From Tsukamurella ocularis (lineage in GTDB: Bacteria; Actinomycetota; Actinomycetes; Mycobacteriales; Mycobacteriaceae), in NCBI RefSeq assembly GCF_024807615.1, contig NZ_JANUCJ010000003.1:558001-622000 (forward strand): 64,000 bases of DNA, given 5' to 3'. Each line of letters opens with the position of its first letter. Position 1 is the first letter of the stretch. The translations under genes were made by a program, and so were the position numbers. This document shows positions 43,448 through 48,856 of the stretch, in pieces. The notes under the pieces are model-generated. The model saw nothing but the letters and a program-made list of their open reading frames with translations, searched no databases and had not been told where the DNA came from.

Positions 43448-44278
43448 GTGACCGACCTTCCGATGCCCGGCCTGCGGCGTCCCGTCCCGGAAGTCCCCCT
43501 GGACTTCCCACGCGAGTGGCTGGAGTTCACCGATCCCGCCGACCCGAGCCACCTGATCGCGGCGGATCTGACGTGGCTGCTTTCCCACTGGACGTGCGTC
43601 TTCGGCACCGAGTCGTGCCACGGGATCGAGCCGGGCCGCGACACGGACGGCTGCTGCAGCCACGGCGCATTCCTCTCCGACAACGACGACCGCAAGCGCC
43701 TGAAGAAGGCCGTCGCGAAGCTCACGGACGACGATTGGCAGTTCCGGAATAAGGGATTGGGCAAGAAGGGCTATCTCGAGGAGGACGACCTCGACGACGA
43801 GCCCGCGCTGCGCACTCGCCGGTACGAGGGCGCGTGCATCTTCCTCAACCGGCCGGGGTTCCCGGGCGGCGAGGGCTGCGCCCTGCACGCCATGGCCCTT
43901 CGGACCGGGGTGGAGCCGCTCACCGTCAAGCCCGACGTCTGCTGGCAGCTACCGGTCCGGCGCACCCAGGAATGGGTCGAGCGGCCCGACGGCGAGCAGA
44001 TCCTGCGCACGACGATCGGCGAGTACGACCGGCGCGGTTGGGGCGCAGGTGGACTCGACCTGCAGTGGTACTGCACCGGCTCCCCCGAAGCGCACGTCGG
44101 CGCGCAGCAGGTGTGGCAGAGCTACGCCCCGGAGCTGACCGAGTTGCTGGGCGAGGAGGCCTACGCCGCGCTGGCCAGGGAATGCGCGGCGCGTCAGGGA
44201 AAGCTGGTCGCCGTGCACCCCGCCACCGCCGCGGCGACGGAACGGCAGTCCTTCGACATGAAGTACGTCGAGCTGTAG
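43448..44278 (+). CDS. Cysteine-rich protein, DUF3109/Rv0495c-like
   Basis: A 276-residue protein with conserved cysteines at C50, C57 and the pair C69-C70 (in DGCCSHGAF), and further ones in [24 protein letters not shown] and QWYCTGS. The pattern suggests a bound metal or iron-sulfur cluster. It is divergent from ppx in the same arrangement as mycobacterial Rv0495c (from memory). Function unknown; start GTG at 43448. Confidence 0.75.
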
Positions 44279-44293
44279 CTCGCTCGGTCGGCG

Positions 44294-45535
44294 CTAGGCG
44301 ACCCTGGTCATGGCCAGCCGCGCCTGCACCCCGCCCTGGATCGGCCCGCCGACGGCGATGGGACGCGGTCCGGAATGGATGAGGCTCAGGAAGATCCGCT
44401 GACCGGCAGTGAGCGGAACGAGGCTGGAGATCACACTCACGTTCTCCCACGTCGTGGCAATGTCCGTCGCTTCCAGGATCTGCATGCCCTCGGCGTACAC
44501 CTTGCACATCAGGCTCTCGCCACCGGACGCACCCTCCCACGGTATCTGGGCGGTGACGAGGTAGACCCCGGTAGCCCTCACCGTCAGGCCCGCGCGGGTG
44601 GCCTGAGCAGAACCGTCAGGCGCGTTCAGATCCGTCTCGATGGCCCACGTAGGCATCCACGCGGTGAGCCCATTCAACTGGTGGACCCCGCACGTCACCG
44701 ACGCGGTCGGTCTCGTGTCGGCGAACGGGATCGCGTCGCCCGGCGCATCGCGTGACTCGACGGAGGCGGACGGGCCACCCTCCTCGAGCTCGGCGATCGT
44801 GGCGCTCAGAACCGCCTCATAGGCACCGAGCCCGGCGAGTAGCACCGGGTCATCGGCGAATTCGGTGCAGGCGCGTCTCAGCCAGGCGAGCATTTCCTCG
44901 TGGGAGTGCTGCCCACCGAAGCCTTCGGCGGCGAGCCCGTCCGCGTGCGACTGCCAGCGCATGCCGCGCGCGGAGAGGAAACGGTCCACAGTGACGAGCG
45001 CCGTCACCTCGGAACTCGGCGCACCACCCCCGCAGCCGTACAGCGCACGCGGCAATGGCTCGTCACCGAAGACCTCGACGAAGGCGCGGGCGACGTCGAT
45101 CTCCTCCTCACCGTCGGCGACGATGGCTTCCCACACGGGGCGGGCGATGAGTGCGAAGACGAGCGGGACGCCGTCGAACGTCGTGCCGGCACCCGAAGGC
45201 GGCTCCGCCCCCTGGTAGAGCCCCAACCAATCGGACATATTGCGAACCAGGTTGCTGATCACGTCGTGAATGGACGGATCCCAGCCGCCGGACGGCCACC
45301 CGTCGTCCGTCCAGTACCTCCCGGACTTTGTCGCCTGGGCGATTCCGGCCGCAATGAGCTCGGTGTTCCGGTTGTCGTCCGGAGCGATCCCACCGTAGTA
45401 GTCGTAGTGGTCGATCATCGGCAGCGCCGCCGGGCGGTAGACGCCGCCCGAACCCCGGCTGAGGACCACCATCGCGGCCTCGGTGTGTGTCAGGCTCACC
45501 CCGGTAATCGCGCAGTTCACGTCGTAACAGCCCAC
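44294..45535 (-). CDS. Orphan protein with a C-terminal C1q/TNF-like jelly-roll domain
   Basis: A 413-residue protein not found in the neighbouring conserved core. The N-terminus reads GCYDVNCAITGVSL and then PMIDHYDYYGGI, a pattern I associate with an uncharacterised bacterial family. The C-terminal 135 residues (from about ASVTCGVHQLNG) alternate strands with GVYLVTAQIPWEG, CKVYAEG, ENVSVISSLVPLTAGQRIFLSLIH, resembling C1q-like beta-sandwiches. No signal peptide or membrane helix. Start GTG 45535 lacks a clear ribosome-binding site; upstream starts are not available. Confidence 0.55.
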   Translation of the reverse strand: MGCYDVNCAITGVSLTHTEAAMVVLSRGSGGVYRPAALPMIDHYDYYGGIAPDDNRNTELIAAGIAQATKSGRYWTDDGWPSGGWDPSIHDVISNLVRNMSDWLGLYQGAEPPSGAGTTFDGVPLVFALIARPVWEAIVADGEEEIDVARAFVEVFGDEPLPRALYGCGGGAPSSEVTALVTVDRFLSARGMRWQSHADGLAAEGFGGQHSHEEMLAWLRRACTEFADDPVLLAGLGAYEAVLSATIAELEEGGPSASVESRDAPGDAIPFADTRPTASVTCGVHQLNGLTAWMPTWAIETDLNAPDGSAQATRAGLTVRATGVYLVTAQIPWEGASGGESLMCKVYAEGMQILEATDIATTWENVSVISSLVPLTAGQRIFLSLIHSGPRPIAVGGPIQGGVQARLAMTRVA

Positions 45536-45603
45536 GGTCGGGATGCTACAAGGGCAAGTGTCGATGACCGCTACCGTCGGCAGGCGGGCAGCCTGCGCAA
45601 GTA

Positions 45604-46290
45604 TTAGGCGAGCCCGTCCAGGCCGTGCAGGTTCTTGGCCGTCGGGCTGGTGTCGACGGTGCCGGGATCCGGGTAGGTGCCCAGCACCCGGTCGGAGGTG
45701 CCCGCGGTGGTGACCGAGAACCAGTAGTGCTCGTTCTTGAAGTGGTGCAACCGGTGGCTGCGCCAGACGGCCTTGTAGGCGCGGCCGCGCGGCTTGTAGT
45801 CGGTGTGCACGAGGTAGTGGGTCCACTCGTAGCCGAGCAGGAACACCGCCTCGACCAGCATGAAGGTGAGCGTCGCGTGCACCGGGGCGCCGATCAGGGC
45901 GCCGACTCCGAGCGGCGCGGCGACGCCCAGGCCCACGATCACCCAGGGCAGCGCGCGGGTGGGGATGAACACGAGATCCACATCGCGGGGCGCGGCGTGA
46001 TGCCGCCGGTGATCGCGCGCGAGCAGCGTGTCCAGCGTGATCGGCCCGACGGTCCGCGGCCGCCAGTGCAGCACGAAGACGTGGATCACCCACTCCAGGA
46101 ACGGGAACAGGGCCGCGAAGACGAGCGGCGCCCACAGGTCGGCGAGCCCTCCCCCGCCGACGGCGATGCGCGCGACGACGGTGCCGGCCAGGAAGGCCAG
46201 GATCATCCACGGCGTGGGGTGGCGCAGGAACTCGCGCGCGGCGTCGCCGAGGGTGACGCCGCGGCGGGCCGCGCGATCGGTCGTGGTCAT
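45604..46290 (-). CDS. Fatty acid hydroxylase / sterol desaturase-superfamily protein
   Basis: A 228-residue membrane diiron enzyme. The histidine clusters are HVFVLH, HRRHH, HYLVHTDY and HRLHHFKNEHYWFSV, matching the HX3H, HX2HH and HX2HH pattern of the superfamily. Three or four helices are predicted. Substrate is probably a lipid. Its ATG overlaps the FadR-type regulator stop (ATGA), so regulator and enzyme are co-translated. Confidence 0.85.
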   Translation of the reverse strand: MTTTDRAARRGVTLGDAAREFLRHPTPWMILAFLAGTVVARIAVGGGGLADLWAPLVFAALFPFLEWVIHVFVLHWRPRTVGPITLDTLLARDHRRHHAAPRDVDLVFIPTRALPWVIVGLGVAAPLGVGALIGAPVHATLTFMLVEAVFLLGYEWTHYLVHTDYKPRGRAYKAVWRSHRLHHFKNEHYWFSVTTAGTSDRVLGTYPDPGTVDTSPTAKNLHGLDGLA

Positions 46291-47012
46291 GACTGCTCCA
46301 TCCGGTCGAGGAATCCGCCGAGAACGCCGGTGGCGCCGCCGAGGACGGCCTGCGCGGCCGCGCGGGCGGCGGTGGCGTCGCCGTCGAGGACGGCGGCGGT
46401 GAGGACGCGGTAGCGCTCCGTGGGTTCGGCGGCCGCGACGGCGTCGGCAAGTACACCGAGCATCGGCTCGTAGACGCGCCGCATGCCGTTGAAGATGAGT
46501 GTCATCGCGATCGAGTCGGCCCCGCGCACGAGCTGCTCCCAGTAGGAGAGGGCCGCGGCCTGCTGCTCCGCGCCCGAGCGGGCGCCCTCGATCGCGGCGA
46601 GCGCCGCGGTCAGCGGGCCGGCCAGCGCGTCGGCGGAGCGGGCGGCGGCCTTCTCGGCGATCCACGGCCCGAGATGTTCGCGCACCTCCAGGACGCTGCG
46701 GACCACGGACGGGTCGACGACGGCACCGTCGGGCGCGGCGACGAGCAGGTGCGGCAGCAGGTCCAGCCCGCCCGTGCGGGTGATGTCGTTGACGACGGCC
46801 CCGTCGCCCTGGCGGACCTCGACGTGCCCCGACGTGGCGAGGCGGGCGATCGCCTCGCGAACGACGGGCCGCGAGACGCCAAGAACCTCCGCGAGCCGGC
46901 GCTCGCTGGGCAGCCGCGAGCCGACCGGCGCGGCACCACTGACCAGCTGGTTCAGCAGCTGCTCGTGCACCTCGTCGGCGGCGGACCGCTTCGTGACCGG
47001 GCTCAGTTCCAT
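46287..47012 (-). CDS. FadR-type GntR-family regulator
   Basis: A 241-residue regulator. The GntR winged helix is LPSERRLAEVLGVSRPVVREAI (about residues 34-55), followed by an all-helical FCD-like domain with LEVREHLGPWIAEKAA. Mycobacterial Rv0494 (from memory) in this position is a fatty-acid-responsive FadR. A TGGTNNNACCA dyad sits 37 bp upstream. Co-translated with the lipid hydroxylase gene, it probably autoregulates both. Confidence 0.85.
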   Translation of the reverse strand: MELSPVTKRSAADEVHEQLLNQLVSGAAPVGSRLPSERRLAEVLGVSRPVVREAIARLATSGHVEVRQGDGAVVNDITRTGGLDLLPHLLVAAPDGAVVDPSVVRSVLEVREHLGPWIAEKAAARSADALAGPLTAALAAIEGARSGAEQQAAALSYWEQLVRGADSIAMTLIFNGMRRVYEPMLGVLADAVAAAEPTERYRVLTAAVLDGDATAARAAAQAVLGGATGVLGGFLDRMEQS

Positions 47013-47048
47013 GCCGGAACCGTAGCGCTACCCGGTCCGGTGGTCAAG

Positions 47049-47059
47049 TGGTCTTACCA
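47049..47059. promoter_or_regulatory. FadR-type operator TGGTCTTACCA
   Basis: An 11-bp palindrome TGGT-CTT-ACCA, the same half-sites and 3-bp centre as the E. coli FadR core. It lies 37-47 bp upstream of the regulator start, the place expected for autorepression. The outer flanks are not symmetric. Confidence 0.6.
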
Positions 47060-47114
47060 TTCCTAGGCTTAGCAGCGAATGCCCGGTACCCCGCGTAGCA
47101 GCATCGACTGCTAC

Positions 47115-48107
47115 CTACTCAGCCGTCAGGTCCCGGAGCAAGGCGCGTTCCTCATCCCGCGTCATACCGACCGCAACCGCATCGGCCGCCGTCCGGAGCC
47201 ATTCCGCGGTATCGCGTGCCGTCTCGTCGAGAGGCCTGATCCTGAGACCGCCCTCTGCGGCAGGCCCCGCGTCGTGATCGAGCATTCCGTCGTAGGCCGG
47301 ACGTGGCAGCCACAGCGGCAACGACCGTTCCCCCGCCCAGGGCTGGGCACCCCGTGCGAGCAGGAACTCGTCGGGAGCCCACACCCAGCGAGGCCGCACA
47401 CCGAGCCCGACTGCCATCCGCTGCACGAACTCCGCCATCGGCAGAGCCGGTGCGACCGCGTCGAACGTGCCGGCCGTGCGCCGCTCGGCCAACAGCACGA
47501 GCCACGCCGCGAGATCACGCACGTCGAGCACCTGCACGCGAGCCCCGGGAGCGCCGGGCGCGAGCACGAGGTCACCGTCGGCCGCGGACGAGAGCCGACT
47601 GGGCCAGTAGGAGAACCGCCCCGTCGGATCACCGGGCCCCACGATCAACCCGGGCCGGACCACCGCCGCGTCGGCACATGCGTCGCGCACGAGCTCCTCA
47701 CAGGCCACTTTCATGGCGCCGTACGCGTCAGACCTCGCGTGGAGCGCGACATCTGACTGCAAGGCCGGAAGCAGAGGCAGGCTCGACGGTCCGCCGCCGG
47801 GTGTCGCGGTGTCGGCGTAGACACTAATGGTGGAGACGAACACCCAGTGCGCGGCGGGGATCGCGGCGACCGCGTCCCTCACCCAGGACGGGGTGCGGGC
47901 GACGTCGATGACGGCGTCGAAGGCTCCGTCGGACAGCCCGGGCGGAACAGGGTCGGCAGAACGGTCCCACCGGACCAGGGAGGCGCCGCCGGGGGCCGGC
48001 CCGGACGTGCCGCGGGCGGCGCAGGTGACGTCGTGTCCGGCGCGGACGGCCACGACCGCGATCTCGCGTGAGAGGAAGGCAGTACCACCGAGCACCAGGA
48101 GTCGCAT
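47115..48107 (-). CDS. NAD-dependent epimerase/reductase-family protein
   Basis: A 330-residue extended SDR. LVLGGTAFLSREIAVVAVRAG is the NAD(P)-binding loop in atypical GGTxFxx form, FVSTISVY provides the serine, and YGAMKVACE is the catalytic YxxxK. The family includes nucleoside-diphosphate-sugar epimerases and reductases; substrate unknown. It lies just upstream of the FadR-type gene but is separated by 103 bp. Confidence 0.78.
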   Translation of the reverse strand: MRLLVLGGTAFLSREIAVVAVRAGHDVTCAARGTSGPAPGGASLVRWDRSADPVPPGLSDGAFDAVIDVARTPSWVRDAVAAIPAAHWVFVSTISVYADTATPGGGPSSLPLLPALQSDVALHARSDAYGAMKVACEELVRDACADAAVVRPGLIVGPGDPTGRFSYWPSRLSSAADGDLVLAPGAPGARVQVLDVRDLAAWLVLLAERRTAGTFDAVAPALPMAEFVQRMAVGLGVRPRWVWAPDEFLLARGAQPWAGERSLPLWLPRPAYDGMLDHDAGPAAEGGLRIRPLDETARDTAEWLRTAADAVAVGMTRDEERALLRDLTAE

Positions 48108-48166
48108 GGCCTCAGCGTGTGCTCGCCAGCGCGTCCCGGCAAGATGGCGCTGCTCGGAGCAGCGCG

Positions 48167-48856
48167 CTAGGGCTCGAGCTTGTAGCCGAGGCCGCGGACG
48201 GTGACCAGGTGCTTCGGGTTGGCCGGATCCGCCTCGATCTTGCTGCGCAGGCGCTTGACGTGCACGTCGAGGGTCTTGGTGTCGCCCACATAGTCGGCGC
48301 CCCAGACGCGGTCGATGAGCTGCCCGCGGGTGAGCACGCGGCCGCTGTTGCGCAGCAAGTACTCGAGCAGGTCGAACTCCTTGAGCGGCAGGGTCACCGC
48401 CTCACCCGCGACGGTCACGACGTGCCGCTCCACGTCCATCCGGACGGGGCCGCCCTCGAGCACCCCGTCGTCCAAGCCGTCCGCGGCGGCGGTGTCCGCG
48501 CCGCGGCGCAGCACCGCGCGGATACGGGCGATGAGCTCGCGCGCGGAGTAGGGCTTGGTGACGTAGTCGTCGGCGCCCAGCTCAAGGCCCACGACCTTGT
48601 CGATCTCGCTGTCGCGCGCGGTCACCATGATGACCGGCACGGACGAGCGGGCCCGCAGCTGCTTGCACACGTCGGTGCCACTCATGCCGGGCAGCATGAG
48701 GTCGAGCAGGACGATGTCGGCGCCCGCGGCGTCGAAGTGCCGCAGGGCCTCGGCGCCGTCCGTGACCACGGTGGTCTCGAAGCCCTCCTTGCGCAGCAGA
48801 AAGGCCAGCGGATCGGCCAGCGATTCCTCGTCCTCGACGATCAGTACGTGTGTCAC
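48167..48856 (-). CDS. regX3: Response regulator RegX3
   Basis: A 229-residue OmpR/PhoB-type regulator. The receiver has the acidic pocket E8-D9 and phospho-acceptor D52 in IVLLDLMLPGMSG, followed by TAR and KPYSARELIARI. The C-terminal winged helix has VLTRGQLIDRVWGADYVGDTK. It is the partner of SenX3 and, in mycobacteria, controls phosphate-starvation genes. Its ATG overlaps the senX3 stop (ATGA). Confidence 0.93.
   Translation of the reverse strand: MTHVLIVEDEESLADPLAFLLRKEGFETTVVTDGAEALRHFDAAGADIVLLDLMLPGMSGTDVCKQLRARSSVPVIMVTARDSEIDKVVGLELGADDYVTKPYSARELIARIRAVLRRGADTAAADGLDDGVLEGGPVRMDVERHVVTVAGEAVTLPLKEFDLLEYLLRNSGRVLTRGQLIDRVWGADYVGDTKTLDVHVKRLRSKIEADPANPKHLVTVRGLGYKLEP

Follow-up and report, generated by a model that had tools for sequence, protein, structure and literature searches.

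The fusion gene and its translational start

In this study, the window (the whole stretch of 64,000 nucleotides analysed here) was found to carry, between a convergent gene and a fatty-acid-hydroxylase-like gene, a gene whose product joins two domains of different kinds. The features of the locus are listed in Table 1. Translation of the minus strand from 45535 to 44297 gave a protein of 413 aa with VGCYDVNCAITG as the first residues and ARLAMTRVA as the last. The frame is open upstream of the GTG codon as far as 46456; this extension, between 45535 and 46456, lies over the hydroxylase gene, which is read in a different frame, and has no counterpart among the relatives. Relatives of the N-terminal domain have MGxYD or MGxFD as their first residues, at the position of the GTG in the window. 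A TANNNT hexamer ending 6–7 nt before the GTG was observed in all five orthologues (TAGCAT, TAGGTT, TACGAT, TAGCAT, and TAGCAT); in mycobacterial leaderless genes, this element is centred 7–12 bp upstream of the TSS (PMC3898074). Because the starts of the relatives and the TANNNT spacing both fit the GTG at 45535, the coordinates 44294–45535 and the reading frame given in the initial annotation are exact, and a leaderless-type start of the fusion gene at this codon is supported. TANNNT is also found 6–7 nt before the ATG of several distant or stand-alone N-domain genes (L096, L106, and L017), and leaderless starts may be common across this family.

Table 1. Features of the fusion gene and its flanks (positions in the window)
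Feature	Position	Strand	Description	Basis or remark
Convergent flanking gene	43481..44278	+	Conserved; 3′ part is the anchor in all 16 species	Context only, outside the system
Fusion gene	44294..45535	-	413 aa, GTG start, stop 44296-44294	Translation, orthologues, dN/dS, -10 box
C1q/TNF-like jelly roll	44297..44725	-	Residues 271-413; related in sequence to the actinophage minor tail protein C-terminal domain	Profiles, predicted structure
Linker	44726..44785	-	About residues 251-270, Gly/Pro/Ser/Ala/Asp-rich	Indels between species; weakest constraint
N-terminal domain	44786..45535	-	Residues 1-250, unnamed family	MGxYDxxCxxTGxxL ... YDxxGGI ... NTEL ... DGxxLVFALIARPVWDAI ... W ... GQH
Putative -10 element	45543..45548	-	TAGCAT	7 nt before GTG, leaderless-type start
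Fatty-acid-hydroxylase-like gene	45604..46287	-	Upstream flank, variable within the genus	Context only, outside the system

Distribution in Tsukamurella

Sequence matches to database records place the window in the genus Tsukamurella. The fusion gene was present in 5 of the 16 Tsukamurella genomes (T. conjunctivitidis, T. asaccharolytica, T. spumae, genome G004, and the genome of the window itself), always at one site, and the other 11 lacked it there. Its orthologues in the four other species share 80–85% protein identity over the full length. In every carrier, the fusion gene and the convergent gene face each other with a few tens of nt between their 3′ ends. The convergent gene was found in all 16 genomes; in the 11 non-carriers it is followed by the hydroxylase gene, RegX3 or another gene, with no fusion gene between. 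The gene thus interrupts a conserved block, as had been noted at first reading. No other phage genes were found at the site, and the chromosomal neighbours are common across the genus.

In a tree of the flanking genes, the carriers were scattered: carrier G000 stood beside non-carrier G003, and carrier G011 beside non-carrier G001, the latter pair with a support of 100. Synonymous distances of the fusion gene (0.18–0.59) were similar in magnitude to the distances obtained for the flanking genes (0.18–0.46) and somewhat higher in several pairs. Both a single old gain followed by repeated loss and exchange by recombination at the site fit as the history of the fusion gene.

Selection and composition

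Pairwise dN/dS for the whole fusion gene was about 0.2 (0.16–0.30) among the five species, in all of which the reading frame is intact. Divided by part, the ratio was 0.19–0.38 for residues 1–250, 0.24–0.77 for the linker, and 0.07–0.16 for the C-terminal domain; both domains are kept by purifying selection, the C-terminal one most strictly. Because of this selection and the full-length identity of the orthologues, the fusion gene is not a chance ORF. Its GC3 of 0.85, compared with 0.90–0.96 for the neighbours, hints at a foreign origin.

An unnamed N-terminal domain family

Searches of Pfam and PADLOC, the latter restricted to described systems, with 8 N-domain members at E values up to 10 gave no match, and NCBIfam, PHROGs and PDB gave no useful one. 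The statement in the initial annotation that this part belongs to no named family therefore stands for all the libraries searched. Its description of the protein as an orphan does not: about 20 further genomes or plasmids carry relatives of the N-domain, in addition to the four orthologues of the fusion itself. A profile built without the sequence of the window (A9) matched it over the full length with an E value of 1.5e-42. Nine positions (D5, C8, L15, P35, A131, W135, A137, W194, and A222) were invariant in all 18 aligned rows.

Stand-alone relatives of approximately 250 aa, none with a C1q domain, occur in three other Tsukamurella species (L016–L018), and plasmid-borne ones in Mycobacterium avium, Streptomyces sp. 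NBC_01435, and T. tyrosinosolvens. Members of this family, for example the M. avium protein WP_095785664.1 of plasmid p1-JPH1, align over their whole length with residues 1–245 at 27–35% identity. In one other genus of the same family, with large genomes, 13 of 148 genomes carried a relative. The domain was rare in a sample of the phylum, with 2 of 396 genomes positive, one of them that of the window. No relatives were found in phage records and viral contigs, and no neighbours were conserved except between closely related loci. From its distribution, the domain has the pattern of a single-gene accessory cargo. Among the relatives in the genus with large genomes, the gene of G832 is disrupted: its start and its end fall into two different short frames (L063 and L065).

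In the AlphaFold2 model, the N-domain was predicted to be mostly helical at low to middling confidence, with short strands near residues 20–35 and 123–131 and several helices; no catalytic motif was recognisable, and the structure searches with the model were taken up by matches to the C-terminal domain. Similar proteins with a YDDYG motif may occur in other bacteria and in phages, for which the libraries searched gave no confirmation.

Several candidate matches were set aside. Ferrochelatase-like proteins (L009 and L010) matched by chance, through a short YDHFGGVSPINxQNR stretch only, and the other weak matches that were inspected (within L029–L045) shared this stretch or single short pieces. 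Weak profile matches to SipB and TetR in PDB (E 0.04 or worse) and to an HNH endonuclease in PHROGs (E 0.24) were scattered. A stretch resembling the type VII secretion motif (WLG then YxxxE, in the form WLGLYxxxE) is missing from the more distant relatives and is not conserved in the family.

The C-terminal domain has a C1q/TNF-type fold

The AlphaFold2 model, based on a 12-row alignment, had a mean pLDDT of 52 overall and of 34–68 in blocks of the C-terminal domain; prediction without an alignment gave a pLDDT of 41. The model contained a beta-sandwich at residues 277–412 with nine strands of at least 3 residues, in keeping with the roughly ten strands and 130–145 residues that characterise the C1q/TNF-like superfamily. 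Foldseek matched it to TNF, lymphotoxin, FasL, Eiger, and C1q chains with E values of 2e-6 to 1e-5 and a probability of 1.00, and VIA-align gave a Z score of 12.4 and an rmsd of 2.8 with 123 residues aligned over residues 273–412. A structure search of BFVD returned phage tail fibres and viral proteins annotated as C1q. As the confidence of the model is moderate, the assignment of the fold rests on the consistency of these matches and not on a precise model.

In single-sequence profile searches, the matches were all below threshold: BclA_C (E 0.008–0.07), TNF (E 0.14–0.21), and a PHROG virion structural protein (E 7e-5). The Pfam scores were below the curated cut-offs (16.5 bits against 38 for BclA_C and 12.6 against 23 for TNF), and the Pfam C1q family was not matched. 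When the phage relatives described below were included in the profile, CD40 ligand and C1q chain C were among the weak PDB matches. Since the Pfam scores fall under their cut-offs, membership in C1q/TNF is claimed at the level of the fold only; at that level, the predicted structure confirmed a C1q/TNF-type jelly roll. The strand pattern of this kind had been recognised from the letters in the initial annotation, which named a C1q match above 90% probability by HHpred as support; in substance such a match was obtained, with Foldseek in place of HHpred.

The domain has the same predicted fold as the heads of TNF, lymphotoxin, CD40L, BAFF, and C1q and a G-x-Y core motif in common with them; however, it shows only 8–22% identity to heads of the superfamily, and the protein has no collagen stalk and no secretion signal. 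The best Pfam match was the BclA C-terminal domain (PF18573, E 0.008); a collagen-like region is absent from the fusion.

Kinship with phage minor tail proteins

At the sequence level, the C-terminal domain is most closely related to the domains at the C-terminus of small minor tail proteins encoded by actinobacterial phages and prophages. These proteins of about 190–240 aa align through their C-terminal part with about residues 290–413 at 23–32% identity. They were found in a prophage of Tsukamurella G004, called a virus also by IMG/VR, in a prophage of G248, in Gordonia phages GRU3, GMA5, and Coeur, and in prophages of two more genera. Comparison of the two profiles by hhalign gave a probability of 96.8% and an E value of 2e-10, so the link to phage proteins suggested beforehand was borne out. 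The proteins of the Gordonia phages and actinobacterial prophages share with the fusion the pattern GLTxRxxGxYLVxAxxPW ... TWENI ... LxxGDxLRL ... RLAMT.

Where the context was read, the genes of the relatives come after a tape-measure gene and a minor-tail gene of 450–550 aa. The phage proteins have an N-terminal segment of their own (MPxxTPxYxxPYP...) and are encoded in tail operons, whereas the fusion gene is flanked by chromosomal genes and not preceded by a tape-measure gene. Because an unrelated 250-aa domain replaces the MPxxTPxYxxPYP segment, the fusion is not classified as a minor tail protein. The domain is regular in the tail operons of several genera and was met only once outside them here; transfer from phage to host is therefore considered more probable than the reverse. 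In the G004 prophage (L021:8258-12395), a short collagen-like stretch precedes the C1q head of the minor tail protein encoded after the tape-measure gene.

For Toil, a tectivirus of Rhodococcus, the proposed receptor-binding spike is a TNF/C1q head, a type of domain described as forming trimers (PMC5773508). Toil gp30, from a virus of a related actinobacterium, has 411 aa and a C-terminal TNF/C1q domain; the likeness lies in the length and in this domain, and unlike the fusion, gp30 is a virion spike (PMC5773508). Collagen-like proteins of E. coli prophages also end in a trimerising domain (PMC3368898). A search of the literature on C1q/TNF domains in prokaryotic conflict systems found nothing relevant.

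Taken by its parts, the head is a new member of a known fold with kin among known phage domains, and the N-domain family is nameless in the libraries searched. The combination was met in five Tsukamurella species only: none of the N-domain relatives found elsewhere carries the C1q domain.

Cellular location

By inspection, no signal peptide, membrane anchor or sorting motif was found in the fusion, and the stand-alone relatives likewise start directly at MGFYD. The leaderless start leaves no room upstream for a hidden signal peptide. Because of this start and the lack of an export signal, the protein would be expected to stay in the cytoplasm, and an intracellular role is likelier than an extracellular one. 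The initial annotation had seen no signal peptide, which is correct, and had asked how the protein would act outside; the leaderless start and the MGFYD start shared by the relatives speak against such action.

A surface or secreted adhesin or lectin, with the C1q head binding a ligand outside the cell, would be in line with the C1q/TNF domains of phages and of spore and surface proteins, which bind outside, and with the weak Pfam match to BclA; it is quite improbable in view of the start fixed by homologues and shared by the stand-alone relatives, the missing export signals, and the absence of the type VII-like WLGLYxxxE stretch from more distant relatives.

Proposed role

With purifying selection having kept both halves, the fusion looks like a piece of phage tail taken over by bacteria for their own use. 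We propose, with a probability of roughly 0.45, that it is a cytoplasmic accessory protein in which the unnamed N-domain is trimerised by the phage-related C1q/TNF head, and that it acts in conflict between the host and phages or mobile elements. In this chimera, an accessory actinobacterial N-domain that is otherwise free-standing is joined through a flexible linker to a head of the phage-tail-tip type. Judging from the fold, the jelly roll would form a trimer as C1q/TNF heads do and would thereby display three N-domains together in the cytoplasm; in addition, a ligand may be bound by loops exposed on the head. Conflict of the host with a phage or a mobile element is the likeliest setting, as suggested by the distribution of the gene and the origin of the head. 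No conserved partner gene was found for the fusion, and PADLOC, which covers described systems, gave no match that would tie the N-domain to defence.

Alternatively, the N-domain may be of an immunity or antitoxin type and neutralise the toxin of a plasmid or a rival, with the jelly roll adding only stability or avidity. Its occurrence as a lone accessory gene, both on plasmids and in variable sites, the lack of conserved neighbours, the size of about 250 aa, and the lack of a recognised enzyme motif are consistent with this, as is the prevalence of leaderless transcripts among the toxin-antitoxin pairs of M. tuberculosis (PMC3898074). With no toxin-like partner seen beside the fusion gene and no Pfam immunity family matched, we consider it unlikely.

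The head might instead act as a dominant-negative inhibitor of phages by co-assembling with, or blocking, the tail-tip trimers of related phages while these are being assembled, the N-domain being a bulky or disabling part. The relatedness of the head to tail-tip proteins from phages and prophages that belong to the same bacterial family, including one in a sister Tsukamurella genome, the patchy presence across species, and the constraint on the C-terminal domain, which is the strictest in the protein, point in this direction; however, an identity of 23–32% to the known phage domains is low for mixed trimers, and in other genera the N-domain occurs without the head, which makes the inhibitor improbable. 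A fuller version, in which the fusion is an intracellular trimeric restriction factor made of a domesticated phage receptor-binding head and a mobile-element-borne domain and blocks tail-tip assembly of related phages, is decidedly doubtful; if true, it would be a bacterial parallel to the restriction factors that animals have derived from viruses.

A decaying prophage remnant or a functionless accidental fusion, to which the absence from 11 of the 16 species and the slightly lower GC3 might point, is hardly credible given a dN/dS near 0.2 across pairs with dS of 0.18–0.59, five intact frames, and the lack of any other phage gene at the site.

For the proposed cytoplasmic accessory protein, the interest lies in a C1q/TNF head of the phage-tail kind that is under strong purifying selection in a bacterial, apparently cytoplasmic protein, and in an unnamed, partly plasmid-borne actinobacterial family of about 20 members that is brought to light with it. 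Should the head have kept its ability to trimerise or come into contact with phage tails, the protein would offer a manageable example of how a bacterium puts a phage attachment domain to new use; should it serve for trimerisation only, the domain architecture would still be new.

Variable content of the insertion site

In Tsukamurella, the interval between the conserved gene at 43481–44278 and RegX3 (44279–48170 in the window; L012–L015 and L084–L095) acts as a cargo site. A near-palindromic repeat (GACTTAACAGCGTTA ... TAACGCTGTTAAGTC) was observed in two species without the fusion gene (L090 and L091), in the intergenic region beside the conserved gene, and is missing from the window. Besides the fusion gene, the variable content of the interval includes a pair of hydroxylase and GntR genes, present in 7 of the 16 species, and an epimerase-like gene, present in 3.
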